This document shows positions 3,842 through 58,731 of a stretch of DNA of 63,999 bases, one piece after another. Each line of letters starts with the position of its first letter. Position 1 is the first letter of the stretch. Made by a program: the position numbers and the translations under genes. The notes under the pieces were generated by a model, which worked only from the letters and a program-made list of their open reading frames with translations, was not told where the DNA came from and did not search any database. The stretch comes from a virus. The DNA is taken from positions 1 to 63,999 of IMG/VR virus record IMGVR_UViG_3300037882_001089. The stretch is one strand, 5' to 3'.

Positions 3842-4240
3842 ATGACAAAAAAAGAAAAAATAAAAGAATCTTATGGCGAATATTGGGAATTAATACAGCC
3901 TGATGTTGATGAAAATGGGTGGGTTGCACATTGGAATCATTTTTTAAGAACTGAAATCCAAAATCATTACGAATTAGAAACAATGACTTATGGCGTTGGG
4001 ACTTGTTGGCGACCAAAATCAATTCAAGGCATAGAAAACAACAATGGGTGGGTTAAAATAAACATTTCACTTGACTTACCAACAAAAAATTTAGATTGTT
4101 GGTTTGAAAATAAAGACGGAATGTTTAGAGGTTATTATAATAGAAAGCAAAATTTCTTTTACGATGAAAAATATGAGGTTATAAGACATGAAGTAACCCA
4201 TTATCAAGAAATATTAAAACCTAAACCCTCAATATTTTAA
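3842..4240 (+). CDS. Hypothetical early phage protein
   Basis: This 132-residue acidic protein is rich in Trp, Tyr and Asn. It ends in RHEVTHYQEILKPKPSIF, which resembles the C-terminal THWxPLPxxP-type ending of DUF551-like phage proteins more than a metallopeptidase HExxH site. It starts three bases after the preceding stop, within a compact + strand early operon. Function unknown. Confidence 0.6.
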   Translation: MTKKEKIKESYGEYWELIQPDVDENGWVAHWNHFLRTEIQNHYELETMTYGVGTCWRPKSIQGIENNNGWVKINISLDLPTKNLDCWFENKDGMFRGYYNRKQNFFYDEKYEVIRHEVTHYQEILKPKPSIF

Positions 4241-4243
4241 ACG

Positions 4244-4369
4244 ATGAAACTATCCGAAGAAGAAAGAGAGGAAATGAGAATACTTTTCAGACGAGCAAGT
4301 ATTTTTATATCAATAGCATCATTTTTTATTATTGGGGCTATTTTATACATCATTAAAACTAAGCAATAA
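4244..4369 (+). CDS. Small single-span membrane protein
   Basis: This 41-residue ORF starts three bases after the previous stop. A charged amphipathic N-terminus (MKLSEEEREEMRILFRRA) is followed by one transmembrane segment (ASFFIIGAILYII) and a short KTKQ tail. It fits exactly between its neighbours, which supports it despite the size. Function unknown. Confidence 0.5.
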   Translation: MKLSEEEREEMRILFRRASIFISIASFFIIGAILYIIKTKQ

Positions 4370-33126: not shown

Positions 33127-33156
33127 TTTGTAGTTAAATATTTATTACTATATTTG
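33127..33156 (+). promoter_or_regulatory. Promoter of the tRNA operon
   Basis: TTTG (33127-33130) and TATATTTG (33149-33156) are 18 bases apart, a good Bacteroidota promoter. Transcription would start within a few bases of the leader ATG at 33161, so the leader ORF is probably translated leaderless. The promoter is divergent from the tail operon. Confidence 0.75.
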
Positions 33157-33160
33157 CTCT

Positions 33161-33232
33161 ATGAATACTAAGAAATTACATACTCTACGTCCTGAGCAAC
33201 CGAAATTATATTTGGGAGGAATTGGCGTATAA
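33161..33232 (+). CDS. Leader peptide of the tRNA operon (23 residues)
   Basis: The ORF starts four bases after the -7 box and ends in TAA at 33230. Codons 7-14 are CAT ACT CTA CGT CCT GAG, then CAA CCG, i.e. HTLRPEQP. Six of these eight codons begin with C, and they call for His, Leu, Arg, Pro and Gln, exactly the five tRNAs encoded downstream. Codons 18-19 carry GGGAGG (33214-33219), which can pair with the terminator's left arm. It is most likely an attenuator leader rather than a functional peptide. Confidence 0.6.
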   Translation: MNTKKLHTLRPEQPKLYLGGIGV

Positions 33233-33287
33233 AGTATTTTATAATATAAAAACGTAAACCTCTCAGAAATGGGAGGTTTTTTTATTT
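33211..33287 (+). promoter_or_regulatory. Attenuator: terminator with alternative antiterminator pairing
   Basis: The terminator pairs AAACCTCTC (33256-33264) with GGGAGGTTT (33271-33279), nine pairs with one G-T, followed by a run of seven T ending right before tRNA-Pro. Alternatively TTTGGGAGG (33211-33219), inside the leader ORF, pairs with CCTCTCAGA (33259-33267), nine pairs with two G-T, which removes the terminator's left arm. A ribosome stalled on codons 7-14 leaves 33211-33219 mostly or wholly free, while one reaching the stop covers it. This is the logic of amino-acid operon attenuation. Confidence 0.6.
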
Positions 33288-33364
33288 CTAGTTACTAGGG
33301 CAGATGGATGAACCCGCCTCACTTGGAATGAGGAGATTCGCTGATTCGATTTCAGCTAACTAGA
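33288..33364 (+). tRNA. tRNA-Pro (anticodon UGG)
   Basis: The acceptor CTAGTTA pairs with TAACTAG with discriminator A. The D-stem is GGG/CCC. The anticodon stem CCTCA/TGAGG carries loop CTTGGAA (anticodon TGG). The T-arm is GCTGA-TTCGATT-TCAGC. CCA is not encoded. Position 37 is A, whereas bacterial tRNA-Pro normally has the m1G37 made by TrmD. Confidence 0.9.
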
Positions 33365-33378
33365 CGAGCAGACTGTTA

Positions 33379-33420
33379 CTAATTCATAGGACGTGGTGTA
33401 TAATACGAACGTAGAATTAG
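33379..33420 (+). other. Inverted repeat between tRNA genes, possible tRNA remnant
   Basis: CTAATTC (33379-33385) and GAATTAG (33414-33420) form a perfect seven-pair acceptor-like stem around 28 bases that include GTAT-A-ATAC. It sits exactly in the spacer between tRNA-Pro and tRNA-Gln. It could be a collapsed sixth tRNA or a processing signal. Confidence 0.35.
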
Positions 33421-33424
33421 ATAT

Positions 33425-33496
33425 TAGAGTATCGTATAACGGTTATTACATCTGACTTTGACTCAGATAATGGAAGTTCGATTCTTTCTACTCTAA
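33425..33496 (+). tRNA. tRNA-Gln (anticodon UUG)
   Basis: Acceptor TAGAGTA/TACTCTA with discriminator A. The anticodon stem TCTGA/TCAGA has loop CTTTGAC (anticodon TTG). The T-arm is GGAAG-TTCGATT-CTTTC. The D-stem is short (GTA/TAC). CCA is not encoded. Confidence 0.88.
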
Positions 33497-33497
33497 C

Positions 33498-33571
33498 TGT
33501 GTTGTTAGCATAATTGGAATAATGTGCCTAACTGTGAATTAGGAGGATAGGGTTCGAGTCCCTGCAACACC
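33498..33571 (+). tRNA. tRNA-His (anticodon GUG)
   Basis: Acceptor GTGTTGT/GCAACAC with C at the discriminator position. Anticodon stem CCTAA/TTAGG with loop CTGTGAA (anticodon GTG). T-arm around TTCGAGT with stem AGGG/CCCT. The base before position 1 is T rather than the G-1 expected for His identity; host Thg1/RNase P processing may matter. Confidence 0.85.
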
Positions 33572-33576
33572 CAAAT

Positions 33577-33650
33577 GCCTCGTTACGCTAAATGGAAGTG
33601 CGGTCACACTTAGAATGTGATGGTTGTAGATTCGACTTCTACACGAGGTA
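33577..33650 (+). tRNA. tRNA with anticodon UAG (Leu, CUN codons), short variable loop
   Basis: Acceptor GCCTCGT/ACGAGGT with discriminator A, as leucine tRNAs need. D-stem CGC/GCG. Anticodon stem TCACA/TGTGA with loop CTTAGAA (anticodon TAG). T-arm GTAGA-TTCGACT-TCTAC. The variable loop is only about five bases, whereas bacterial tRNA-Leu has a long variable arm. Position 37 is A instead of the usual m1G37. Confidence 0.85.
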
Positions 33651-33656
33651 CTAAAT

Positions 33657-33728
33657 TTTCTTATAGTTTAATGGATAAAACATCAGATTACGACTCTGAT
33701 AATCTCCGTTCGAGTCGGGGTAAGAAAA
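33657..33728 (+). tRNA. tRNA-Arg (anticodon ACG)
   Basis: Acceptor TTTCTTA/TAAGAAA is perfect with discriminator A. Anticodon stem TCAGA/TCTGA with loop TTACGAC (anticodon ACG, to be read as ICG after TadA editing). T-arm CTCCG-TTCGAGT-CGGGG. It is the last tRNA before the terminator at 33734. Confidence 0.9.
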
Positions 33729-33731
33729 CTA

Positions 33732-33768
33732 AAAAAGCCTACCAAAACTAATTGGTAGGCTTTTAAAT
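33732..33768. terminator. Bidirectional terminator after the tRNA operon
   Basis: AAAAGCCTACCAA pairs with TTGGTAGGCTTTT across AACTAA, with T-rich flanks on both strands. It ends the + strand tRNA operon and the - strand gene that stops at 33783. Confidence 0.88.
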
Positions 33769-49762: not shown

Positions 49763-51262
49763 TTAAATTCCACCATCTGTTATTGTCCAATTATTTGGAG
49801 CACCTGTTAATATTGCTCTTCCTGCTGTAGAAGCTGCTGTTCTTTTTGCTGTACCAAATGTTATTACAATGCTCGGTTTAACACTTGGTAATGCTGACCA
49901 TCCATTATAAATAGCATCTAAATTTGTTGTAGAAAATGTTGCTGGAGTTTTACCTGACATAAAAAATGAAAAATTAAGTACATTTCTAACGTCCCACGCC
50001 CCAATGTTTTGATTAAATGCTGTTGCGTTTTGGAACATTTGCGCCATATTTGTTGCTGAAATTGTATTCCATGAACCAATTGTAGAGCTGCTACCATTGT
50101 TAAAAGCGGATGCCCCTAAGAACATTAATGTAAAGTTTGTTACATTAGTTGTAATAAATGAACCTATGTTTTGATTGAACGCTGTATTAGATAAGAACAT
50201 TGCGCTCATATCTGTACAATTAGTAGTATTCCAACTACTTAGTGACTGATTGAATGGACACGCTCTAAACATCCCATTCATTTTTGTAATTCTATTTACA
50301 TTCCAAGTATTTACAGGTTGATTAAAAGATGAGGCGTTAAAGAACATATTACCACAATCAATGCTACCTGTAGATTTGAAAACCCAATTTCCAATAGCAG
50401 AACTTCCTCCATTGTTAAATGCAGTAGCTCCATTAAACATGTTAACAAAATTTATTACATTTCCAATATTCCAAGTTCCAATGTTTTGATTAAATGCTGT
50501 TGCACCAATAAACATGAAACTCATTGATGTTACATTAGAGGTGTTCCAATTACCAATAGGTTGATTAAATGATGGTGCTGATTGGAAAACATTTTCCATA
50601 TTAGTAACACTAATTGTATTCCAATTATTTATTGTGTTAGAACCACCATTATTGAAAGCTGTACAACTTGCAAATAAAGAACCCATTGTTGTTACATTTC
50701 CAACATTCCAAGCTCCAATATTTGAATTAAATAAAGTACTTGATGTAAAAACAGCGTTCATAGAATTAATTACAGAAGTATTCCACTCGTTAATTCTATT
50801 TATTGTAGTAATAGCATTACACGCTCTAAATGCTGAAGTGAAATTTGTTGTTACAGATAAGTCTAATACATCTTTAACAGTTGTTAATGTTAAATTATTA
50901 CACCCATAGAAGTAACTACCTTCATTTGTACCTAATCTTAATGCACCCCATTCTGTAATCGTAAGTATTTTTAATCTATCTCCTGAGTTTACAAATGCAA
51001 ATCCTGTACAAACTCCTTTTATTTTAATAGTGTAAGTACCTGCTACAGCATATGTGTGAGTTACTGCCACTTGATTCCAAGTAGTAATTACAGAAGAACT
51101 ACCATCACCCCAATCAACTGTCATATTGTATGTACCTGTTGAAATTAATGGTAATTTTACTTGCGTAGAAGTACTTGAACCCGCAGATGTATTAGAGGTA
51201 TTCCACGTAGAAACAAACTGTTTACGTGTTTTTCCATATTCATAAAATAAAACTGGATTCAT
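49763..51262 (-). CDS. Tail fibre/adhesin with PKD-like and BspA (DUF285) repeats
   Basis: The 499-residue protein begins with a PKD-like fold (TVDWGDGSSSVITTW, THTYAVAGTYTIKI). Seven or more repeats of about 20-30 residues follow, with the core W-N-(T/I)-x-x-(V/I)-x-x-(M/F)-x-x-M-F-x-x-x-x-x-F-N, i.e. BspA/DUF285 leucine-rich-like repeats. These are usually cell-surface proteins of Bacteroidota or mycoplasmas. In a tail operon it most likely binds the receptor. Confidence 0.75.
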   Translation of the reverse strand: MNPVLFYEYGKTRKQFVSTWNTSNTSAGSSTSTQVKLPLISTGTYNMTVDWGDGSSSVITTWNQVAVTHTYAVAGTYTIKIKGVCTGFAFVNSGDRLKILTITEWGALRLGTNEGSYFYGCNNLTLTTVKDVLDLSVTTNFTSAFRACNAITTINRINEWNTSVINSMNAVFTSSTLFNSNIGAWNVGNVTTMGSLFASCTAFNNGGSNTINNWNTISVTNMENVFQSAPSFNQPIGNWNTSNVTSMSFMFIGATAFNQNIGTWNIGNVINFVNMFNGATAFNNGGSSAIGNWVFKSTGSIDCGNMFFNASSFNQPVNTWNVNRITKMNGMFRACPFNQSLSSWNTTNCTDMSAMFLSNTAFNQNIGSFITTNVTNFTLMFLGASAFNNGSSSTIGSWNTISATNMAQMFQNATAFNQNIGAWDVRNVLNFSFFMSGKTPATFSTTNLDAIYNGWSALPSVKPSIVITFGTAKRTAASTAGRAILTGAPNNWTITDGGI

Positions 51263-53205: not shown

Positions 53206-53213
53206 TACATTTG
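53206..53213 (+). promoter_or_regulatory. -7 box of the groEL-groES promoter
   Basis: TACATTTG fits TAnnTTTG. GGATAATTTTT directly upstream is shared with the promoter at 37.8 kb. Transcription would start near 53219, which rules out a GTG start at 53213 and supports the ATG at 53243. Confidence 0.65.
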
Positions 53214-53242
53214 TGATACAAATTAATTTAATTAAATATTTT

Positions 53243-54832
53243 ATGGATAATTCTATTATTAGGGAGATTATTTCTGATGAGTATATGAAAAATAGATTTC
53301 TTTCTGCACTTGAAAAAGCTGAGAAAGTTGTAGGAGATACAGTTGGTTTTAGGGGAGGGTTTAATGTTATTGAAAAGTTTGGTGGAATGCCTGACTTAAC
53401 AAAAGATGGTTGGTCGTGCTTAAAAGAGCTTTATTTTGATGACCCCGTTGAAGCACTTGCTTTAGAGATTGTAAAAGAAGCTACCAAGAAAACGTTTGAA
53501 AATGTAGGAGATAATACTTCATCGACTACAATATTAGTTTACTCATTTTTTAAAAACTCCTTACTTGCATTAAAAAACGGAAAGTCATCTATTGATATTC
53601 AAAGAGAGTTAGAAGAATCAGTAAACAAAATTGTTAATTATATAGATGAAATTTCAATTCCTGTTACAGATAAACTACTTTATGATGTAGCAAGAACTTC
53701 CGCTAATGACGACCATAATATTGCGAAAATAGTTTCGGAGGCTTTTGAAAAAGCTGGAGAGTTTGGTATTGTTTCCCATAAAAGAAGTATGACTGATGAA
53801 ACATTTATTGAACACGTAGAAGGTAATCCTATTGAAAGCGGATATACTCATGATTCATTTATTAATGTTCCCGAAACTCAAAGTGTTATTTTTGATAATC
53901 CATTAGTTTTGGTATCAATGATTAACTTCCAAACTGCTAACGAGATTATCCCTTTCTTGGAATACGCAAGTAAAGAAGCAAAACCACTTGTAATTATTTC
54001 AGAAATGAGCCACGATATTAAATCATTAATAGTTACCAACGTACAAAATCATAATTACCCATTCTGTATTGTTAAACCTCCATACTTAGGGAAGAAAGGT
54101 CGTGAAACAATGTTAGATTTGGCATTAATTTTAGAGTGTCAATTATTAGAGGGCATTTCTCGTGTAAACTACGAAGGAAAAGAAGAATTATACTTAGGTT
54201 CTTGTCAAAGAATGGAAGTTGGGAAAAAATATTCTACCATAATTCCTAACTCAAAAGACAACGAAAAAGTATTAGGTAAAATTGCTGAACTTAACTCACA
54301 AATCAAACATCTTAAAAAAGATTTTGAGAAAAACTACTTACGTGAAAGAATAGCCAAGTTATCAGGAGGTATTTCTACTATTATGGTAGGAGGGGTAACC
54401 CCAAGTGAAACAGAAGAAAGATTAGCTCGTGTAGATGATGCGGTTTGTGCTGTTCGTTCCGCAAAAGAAGAAGGGGTTGTTGCGGGTGGAGGAACTGCTT
54501 TAGTAAGTGCATTAGATTTGAAGTTAGACGAAATTACAAGAAAATCTATTTCCGCTCCATATTTGAAAATTCTTTCTAACGCTCACATAGACGTATCAAT
54601 TCCTTTTTGGACTCATTTAAGAGATGCTTTAAAAGGTAGAAAGAGTAAGGAGTTTTACGCAGAACAATATCCTATGGGATATAACGTTAAAACTTATGAA
54701 GTAGTAAACTTATTAGATTCAGGAATAGTAGATACCGCAAAAGGAGTAAAAAACTCTTTAATCAATGCTGTTTCCGCTTCAAATAATCTACTAAGAACAA
54801 ATAATTGTATAACCTTTAAAAGACATAACTAA
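53243..54832 (+). CDS. groEL: Phage-encoded chaperonin GroEL
   Basis: The 529-residue protein has chaperonin landmarks: FRGGFNVIEKFGGMPDLTKD, the ATP-binding GDNTSSTTILV (GDGTTTAT in bacteria, Asp kept), ARVDDAVCAVRSAKEEGVVA and GGGTAL. The apical domain is divergent and the C-terminal GGM tail is missing. It probably folds capsid or fibre proteins. It is followed by groES with a one-base overlap. The start at 53243 is chosen because the promoter box lies at 53206-53213. Confidence 0.92.
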   Translation: MDNSIIREIISDEYMKNRFLSALEKAEKVVGDTVGFRGGFNVIEKFGGMPDLTKDGWSCLKELYFDDPVEALALEIVKEATKKTFENVGDNTSSTTILVYSFFKNSLLALKNGKSSIDIQRELEESVNKIVNYIDEISIPVTDKLLYDVARTSANDDHNIAKIVSEAFEKAGEFGIVSHKRSMTDETFIEHVEGNPIESGYTHDSFINVPETQSVIFDNPLVLVSMINFQTANEIIPFLEYASKEAKPLVIISEMSHDIKSLIVTNVQNHNYPFCIVKPPYLGKKGRETMLDLALILECQLLEGISRVNYEGKEELYLGSCQRMEVGKKYSTIIPNSKDNEKVLGKIAELNSQIKHLKKDFEKNYLRERIAKLSGGISTIMVGGVTPSETEERLARVDDAVCAVRSAKEEGVVAGGGTALVSALDLKLDEITRKSISAPYLKILSNAHIDVSIPFWTHLRDALKGRKSKEFYAEQYPMGYNVKTYEVVNLLDSGIVDTAKGVKNSLINAVSASNNLLRTNNCITFKRHN

Positions 54833-58600: not shown

Positions 58601-58617
58601 AATAAAACATTTTAGAG

Positions 58618-58731
58618 AAGGATGAAGGACTCGAACCCTCATCATAGGATAAAACTCCTATATTCTAACCAAGCGGGTTCATACGAACCTCCGAACTAAT
58701 CCCTCTGCCAATCTAACTCCCGAATCATCCC
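58618..58731 (-). tRNA. tRNA-like sequence, probably degenerate
   Basis: The - strand has a convincing T-arm (GAGGG-TTCGAGT-CCTTC) and outer pairing of GGGATGA (58731 to 58725) with TCATCCT (58625 to 58619). A strong hairpin, ATAGGA-GTTTTA-TCCTAT, lies between, but no normal seven-base anticodon loop can be placed. At about 114 bases it is too long for a standard tRNA. It may be a decayed or composite tRNA lying in the 5' leader of the operon. Confidence 0.35.

Follow-up and report, generated by a model that had tools for sequence, protein, structure and literature searches.

Leader peptides that match the downstream tRNAs: a candidate self-sensing attenuator of tRNA operons in Bacteroidota phages

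The leaders of the trp, his, phe, thr and ilv operons are ribosome-mediated attenuators of amino-acid operons. In T-box riboswitches, it is the state of a tRNA that triggers transcription read-through. The purpose of the tRNA genes carried by phages has been debated for decades. Defences that cut tRNAs, and phage tRNAs as a countermeasure to them, are documented (PMC10264068, PMC11555353, PMC12409363). Short ORFs reminiscent of attenuators occur in 5' untranslated regions of Bacteroides thetaiotaomicron (PMC7366714). The present analysis concerns a phage tRNA operon whose anatomy, codon matching, covariation and folding point to a ribosome-mediated transcription attenuator through which the operon would sense its own products. 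The probability of this reading is put at roughly 90%.

The window, that is, the whole stretch of 63,999 bases that was analysed, is an IMG/VR virus record and resembles Flavobacterium elemovirus phages. The major capsid protein shares 34-35% identity with those of Flavobacterium elemoviruses, and the structural genes have matches among head-and-packaging PHROGs. A rightward tRNA unit lies between two leftward structural genes (Table 1). The initial annotation of the locus had described a promoter, a 23-codon ORF, a terminator and a Pro-Gln-His-Leu-Arg tRNA operon, all of which were found at the positions it gave; the pairing that it drew between a segment of the ORF and the terminator arm is exactly as described. 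The promoter agrees with the Bacteroidota consensus TTTG/TAnnTTTG, the second box of which lies at -12 to -5 (PMC7366714, PMC9723704). The terminator stem (33256-33279) has 10 bp and a folding energy of -12.6 kcal/mol, and its T tract occupies 33277-33283. Elsewhere in the window, positions 53213-54832 encode a chaperonin of the Cpn60 family with a GTG start; Maribacter phage Panino also has a groEL gene (L038 993-2603), close to one of its tRNA operons. The gene at 49763-51262 encodes a protein containing four stretches of DUF285 repeats; this family was described from Mycoplasma. On the minus strand, a tRNA-Ser(gct) gene that stands alone (58615-58705) has no evident leader, like the other single-tRNA loci seen.

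Table 1. Features of the tRNA unit, in positions of the window
Feature	Position	Strand	Basis or remark
Promoter: TTTG, 18 bp (N18), TATATTTG	TTTG 33127-33130; TATATTTG 33149-33156	+	Bacteroidota sigma-A type TTTG/TAnnTTTG; sequence
Predicted transcription start, A of ATG	33161	+	sigma-A box at -12 to -5 (PMC9723704)
Leader ORF, 23 codons, MNTKKLHTLRPEQPKLYLGGIGV	33161-33232	+	sequence; frame-specific codon match in 53 leaders
Control codons 7-14, His Thr Leu Arg Pro Glu Gln Pro (CAT ACT CTA CGT CCT GAG CAA CCG)	33179-33202	+	
Possible protector hairpin 1:2, CCGAA/TTTGG	33200-33215	+	fold of 33198-33222, -3.4 kcal/mol; weak
Segment 2, TTTGGGAGG, predicted antiterminator 5' strand within the ORF	33211-33219	+	pairs with 33259-33267
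Segment 3, terminator 5' arm, common to terminator and antiterminator	33256-33267	+	
Intrinsic terminator, AAACCTCTCA GAAA TGGGAGGTTT, T tract	33256-33284	+	between leader and first tRNA
tRNA-Pro(tgg)	33288-33365	+	
Inter-tRNA element, 59 nt	33366-33424	+	position of tRNA-Glu in other operons of the class
tRNA-Gln(ttg)	33425-33497	+	
tRNA-His(gtg)	33498-33572	+	
tRNA-Leu(tag)	33577-33651	+	
tRNA-Arg(acg)	33657-33729	+	
Bidirectional terminator of the operon and of the facing 339-aa gene	33733-33764	.	

All five tRNA families of the operon are represented in leader codons 7-14, and only Thr and Glu are extra, a statement of the initial annotation that the sequence confirms. With the codon usage of the window, eight random codons would contain all five families with a probability of about 5e-6, and 22 codons with a probability of 0.0023. 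A chance of 0.2% over 22 codons, in a long window that offers many places, is what coincidence has in its favour; however, the same match is found in dozens of other operons, and this comparison refutes coincidence, the probability of which is negligible. Two features of the leader speak against an attenuator: the codons Thr8 (ACT, 33182-33184) and Glu12 (GAG, 33194-33196) have no cognate tRNA in the window operon, and most tRNAs are represented by single codons, without runs of the his/trp type. The two unmatched codons may reflect a recent loss, as in many related operons the tRNA after tRNA-Pro is tRNA-Glu. The 59-nt gap after tRNA-Pro was considered as a degenerate tRNA-Glu and this was rejected, there being no recognisable tRNA in it. 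The same element is 78% identical between the window and Tenacibaculum phage Gundel_1 (L017 4052-4111) and is partly present in phage phi4:1 (L034, about 511-533), with a hairpin CTAATTC/GAATTAG.

A BLAST match of the tRNA region of the window led to Gundel_1 (Pachyviridae), which carries two tRNA operons; both come with their own promoter, short ORF and terminator. The first leader, MKTKLYSYSCFSSWFKNRAG, precedes Trp, Phe and two Ser tRNAs called by ARAGORN and Tyr and Cys tRNAs recognised by eye, while the second, MKTNNLHIQQNNLPVFLEGFLYM, precedes Pro, Gln, a CAU tRNA, Asn and Leu. The second leader and its tRNAs are separated by an HNH gene. This leader (L017 3281-3349) contains an ATA codon, which suggests that the CAU tRNA (4190-4263), annotated as Met, may be a tRNA-Ile2 reading AUA. 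Three operons each, with one matching leader per operon, are found in Cellulophaga phage phi4:1 (Lightbulbvirus), in Calle_1 and phi38:1 (Pervagoviridae) and in Maribacter phage Panino. The operon types in these phages are, broadly, Pro-Glu-Gln-His-Leu-Leu-Arg(acg), Ala-Lys-Ile-Gly-Met-Asp-Thr-Val-Arg(tct) and Tyr-Ser-Ser-Cys-Asn-Trp-Phe. Dozens more leaders were obtained from IMG/VR by pattern scans, which account for most of the leaders retrieved. The scan patterns fix the promoter, the start codon (ATGAA), the T-run and TTCGA and leave the control codons free; one of them also fixes the first few codons. Leaders from these scans include MKMLLCHISMSLSHSM before Cys, Met, His, Ser, Leu, Leu and Ser, MKTLISNFNFDNDKP before Asp, Asn and Phe, and MNKVFRHTWFTCQPTQP before Pro, Thr, Phe, Gln, His, Arg, Trp and Cys. 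Detector false positives (L063, MIQRG..; L064, MCLNH..; the second ORF in L036) were removed by hand. The design recurs in many Bacteroidota viruses, including unrelated flavophages, with very different tRNA sets, and apart from the cognate codons and the triplets of segment 2, the leader peptides have almost nothing in common.

A further set of loci was retrieved solely via the neighbouring 243-aa structural protein, independently of any leader pattern. Close relatives of the major capsid protein carry no tRNAs at this site, and neither do most relatives of the 243-aa protein, L005 being an exception. Wherever a locus of the 243-aa protein carries an operon of at least 3 tRNAs, a leader was present in every case seen. 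L005 has a Tyr-Leu-Ser-Ser-Leu operon with the leader SLYLSLSLSLSS, and L041 a Tyr-Phe-Leu-Ser-Ser-Cys-Leu operon with a leader containing SLYLSFCYS. L030 and L126 have two operons each, with one fitting leader per operon; L133 is a partial exception, with Cys in the leader where Arg would be expected. At this one site, the leader codons differ between relatives in step with the tRNAs of their operons.

The match between codons and anticodons was quantified in 53 distinct leaders by comparing codons 3-17 with the codons readable by the anticodons of the operon. The tRNAs were called with ARAGORN at a relaxed threshold, and the Calle_A leader was left out because its terminator had been missed by the scan. 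Since the leaders are related by descent, the permutation and Fisher values overstate independence and their nominal significance is too strong; with this reservation, 97.0% of operon tRNAs have a codon in frame 0 of their own leader, compared with 47.4% when leaders and operons are re-paired (sd 4.1; z = 12), and the highest coverage in 20,000 such permutations was 64.2%. Precision behaves similarly, with 62.8% of codons cognate versus 29.0% after re-pairing (z 13). Frames +1 and +2 of the 53 leaders show no excess of cognate codons. Every operon tRNA is covered in 45 of the 53 leaders, and 37 different anticodon sets occur among 52 leaders. The association holds tRNA by tRNA for most tRNAs tested. 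A Trp codon is found in 15/17 leaders with tRNA-Trp and in 0/35 without it; the corresponding counts are 22/22 and 1/30 for Arg(CGN), 22/23 and 2/29 for Pro, and 19/19 and 4/33 for Tyr. At the level of individual codons, the leader Arg codons of acg operons are CGN in 21/22 cases, compared with 26% CGN in the genes of the window, while the split tests for Leu are suggestive only and those for Ser and Ile uninformative. The covariation of leader codons with tRNA content, which the initial annotation had proposed to look for, is present across the set. Its placement of the control codons at 7-14 also holds beyond the window: the cognate fraction is 68-91% at codons 7-14 and falls to a background of about 18% from codon 18. 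The matching codons end just before the segment that is complementary to the leader's own terminator arm.

This segment 2 lies at about nt 45-62 of the ORF in most leaders and is complementary to the 5' arm of the leader's own terminator. Its pairing energy with its own terminator arm averages -12.5 kcal/mol, versus -8.3 kcal/mol when re-paired (z -13.8). Segments 2 and 3 covary, the pairing being kept while the sequences are very different between phages, as would be expected from the alternative pairing put forward in the initial annotation. A different view of the unit is that the leader (33161-33284) makes a small RNA or short peptide of independent function, that the terminator is simply the usual 3' end of this transcript, and that the tRNAs are reached by modest read-through or from another promoter. 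The promoter and terminator do bracket a 120-nt unit, and the C-terminal end of the peptide looks conserved in one class (..GGTGV). However, the peptides otherwise change with the tRNA set of the operon, and the complement to each leader's own terminator arm would be left unexplained. Independent function is very improbable and appears largely refuted by the covariation. Still less probable is direct sensing of tRNA by the RNA, in the manner of a T-box, or by a protein-bound leader, with the ORF unused. The tRNAs of the operon would be the obvious ligand; however, only one frame of an ATG ORF shows the codon match, which stops at the point where the leading edge of a ribosome would meet segment 2, and no T-box or other cis-regulatory Rfam family reaches threshold. 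In the Rfam search, only tRNAs scored above threshold, and the T-box covariance model gave no match up to E = 1. Sub-threshold matches to Phe_leader and SpF10 were dismissed as chance-level.

The switch expected of an attenuator was modelled by co-transcriptional folding, in which the RNA was exposed to the terminator loop and the leading edge of the ribosome was placed 12 nt past the start of the A-site codon, an approximate mask. Across the leader set, the predicted probability of antiterminator pairing is 0.94-0.98 with a stall at codons 6-13 and 0.15 with the ribosome at the stop codon. Folding with a ribosome mask had been suggested in the initial annotation, and its outcome agrees with the attenuator: stalls at codons 6-14 give the antiterminator and release at the stop gives the terminator. 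For the window leader, the predicted change from antiterminator to terminator occurs once the ribosome moves from codon 15 to codon 16, immediately past Pro14, the last of the control codons. The antiterminator domain of the window is predicted at -15.0 kcal/mol before the 3' arm of the terminator exists, and the terminator at -12.6 kcal/mol, so the two are of similar strength. When the ribosome is absent, the fold favours antitermination on average (mean 0.70), and there is no general 1:2 protector hairpin, which counts against the attenuator; the role of the possible hairpin in the window as a protector is uncertain. Because read-through is favoured without a ribosome, the off state seems to need translation. 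From the results for stalled and terminating ribosomes, the sign of regulation should be that tRNA shortage leads to read-through.

The proposed mechanism can be outlined as follows. Transcription would begin at the AUG of the short ORF, with a ribosome trailing the RNA polymerase. Codons from about 7 to 14 would be decoded by tRNAs encoded downstream. If any of those tRNAs were scarce, whether depleted, cleaved or uncharged, the ribosome would stall at the control codons and leave segment 2 free to pair with segment 3, and the polymerase would enter the tRNA genes. If the tRNAs were plentiful, the ribosome would reach the stop codon and cover segment 2, the terminator would form and the operon would be off. 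Codons for the whole set would act as an OR gate, in which a shortage of one tRNA switches on all of them. The sign and size of this regulation, translation of the leader, termination and induction by tRNA shortage are predictions from sequence. The initial annotation had read the locus in the same way, with stalling at scarce tRNAs leading to read-through, and the comparative tests and folding support that reading of a regulation that is itself deduced.

The trigger is most likely the loss of host tRNAs during infection or through tRNA-cutting defences. The same anatomy could respond mainly to amino-acid starvation, that is, to uncharged tRNA as in his and trp. Lack of charged tRNA would stall the ribosome equally, and anatomy cannot separate the two signals. 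However, switching on these genes increases tRNA rather than amino acids, and every leader combines codons for many amino acids. Starvation as the main signal is therefore considered rather unlikely, and tRNA loss is favoured because extra tRNA would be of no help if only amino acids were short.

The start of the leader has a feature of its own. In a published map of transcription start sites in Flavobacterium psychrophilum, the sigma-A box is located at -12 to -5, and about 5.5% of mRNAs are leaderless (PMC9723704). In the two commonest classes, almost every leader has 4 nt between the box and the ATG; many of these leaders were found with scan patterns that required this spacing. The same 4 nt occur in leaders found without that constraint, namely those of the window, L005, Gundel_1, phi4:1 A, and Panino A and C. 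Leaders of the Ala-Lys-Ile type have a short untranslated stretch before the ATG. Taken together, the box position and the 4-nt spacing place +1 on the A of the window ATG, so the leader mRNA should be leaderless and the leader would be translated from a leaderless start.

The distribution of the design has limits. The tRNA cluster of crAss001 (>20 tRNAs; L198 1530-5800), whose host belongs to the same phylum, has no cognate leader, and thus the device is not general in Bacteroidota phages. The tRNA cluster of T4 has no such leader either. One pattern, run against 84,980 bacterial and archaeal species genomes, gave 15 matches, of which 2 were real cases, one on a Lacinutrix contig of phage-like character and one on the chromosome of a Spirosoma. 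Similar operons were also seen in three more Spirosoma genomes, for example with MNLLSQYQFKRTFCYQQ before Cys-Lys-Phe-Tyr-Trp-Arg-Gln. In all, four Spirosoma genomes (L111-L114, L203-L205) have chromosomal tRNA operons with what looks like a cognate leader of this type, and the flanking Spirosoma genes tested are not phage structural genes. The operon at L205 adjoins a large helicase with a PLD-like nuclease domain. It is probable that these leaders form a widespread class of self-sensing attenuators in Bacteroidota phages and some chromosomal tRNA operons. Leaderless leaders would spell the anticodon repertoire, and depletion of any member would release the whole set, as an inducible countermeasure to, for example, anticodon-nuclease defence.

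If this is true, phages draw on their tRNAs when needed and not solely as a standing correction of codon usage, and the codons of a leader list the tRNAs whose supply the phage treats as insecure. The leader would then combine several inputs in an attenuator whose feedback loop is closed, and phages facing tRNA-depleting defences could be found from sequence alone. The predictions are simple and separable, and cultured phages, among them Cellulophaga phi38:1 and phi4:1, are suited to testing them.

The initial annotation knew of no described phage tRNA operon under such control, and no earlier description of phage tRNAs with attenuation or leader peptides was found in the open-licence PubMed Central full texts searched; an unseen one is possible. 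The work on tRNA-cutting defences (PMC10264068, PMC11555353, PMC12409363) likely concerns the same setting, in which phage tRNAs replace depleted host tRNAs, but it treats the tRNAs themselves; the searched text of PMC10264068 mentions no attenuation, leader, promoter or terminator. The short ORFs of B. thetaiotaomicron (PMC7366714) are candidate leader peptides from the same phylum, but they lie upstream of protein genes and have no link to tRNAs. As in T-box systems, the state of tRNA would lead to read-through; unlike in T-box systems, sensing is predicted to occur through the codons of a translated frame. The likeness to attenuators of the trp/his type extends to a leader ORF with control codons, an intrinsic terminator, a mutually exclusive antiterminator and stalling that would lead to read-through. 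Folding also gives the geometry of these attenuators, in that a stall frees segment 2 and a ribosome at the stop codon covers it. Their 1:2 protector hairpin has no consistent counterpart here, the one in the window being weak. In contrast to the trp/his type, the leaders described here mix 3-10 amino acids without long runs, have a predicted leaderless start and are borne by phages. Moreover, the operon consists of tRNAs only, with no genes for amino-acid biosynthesis, transport or charging, and the sensor is the product. What appears to be new is an attenuation that is of the trp/his kind by its anatomy, in an operon that makes the very tRNAs that would be sensed.
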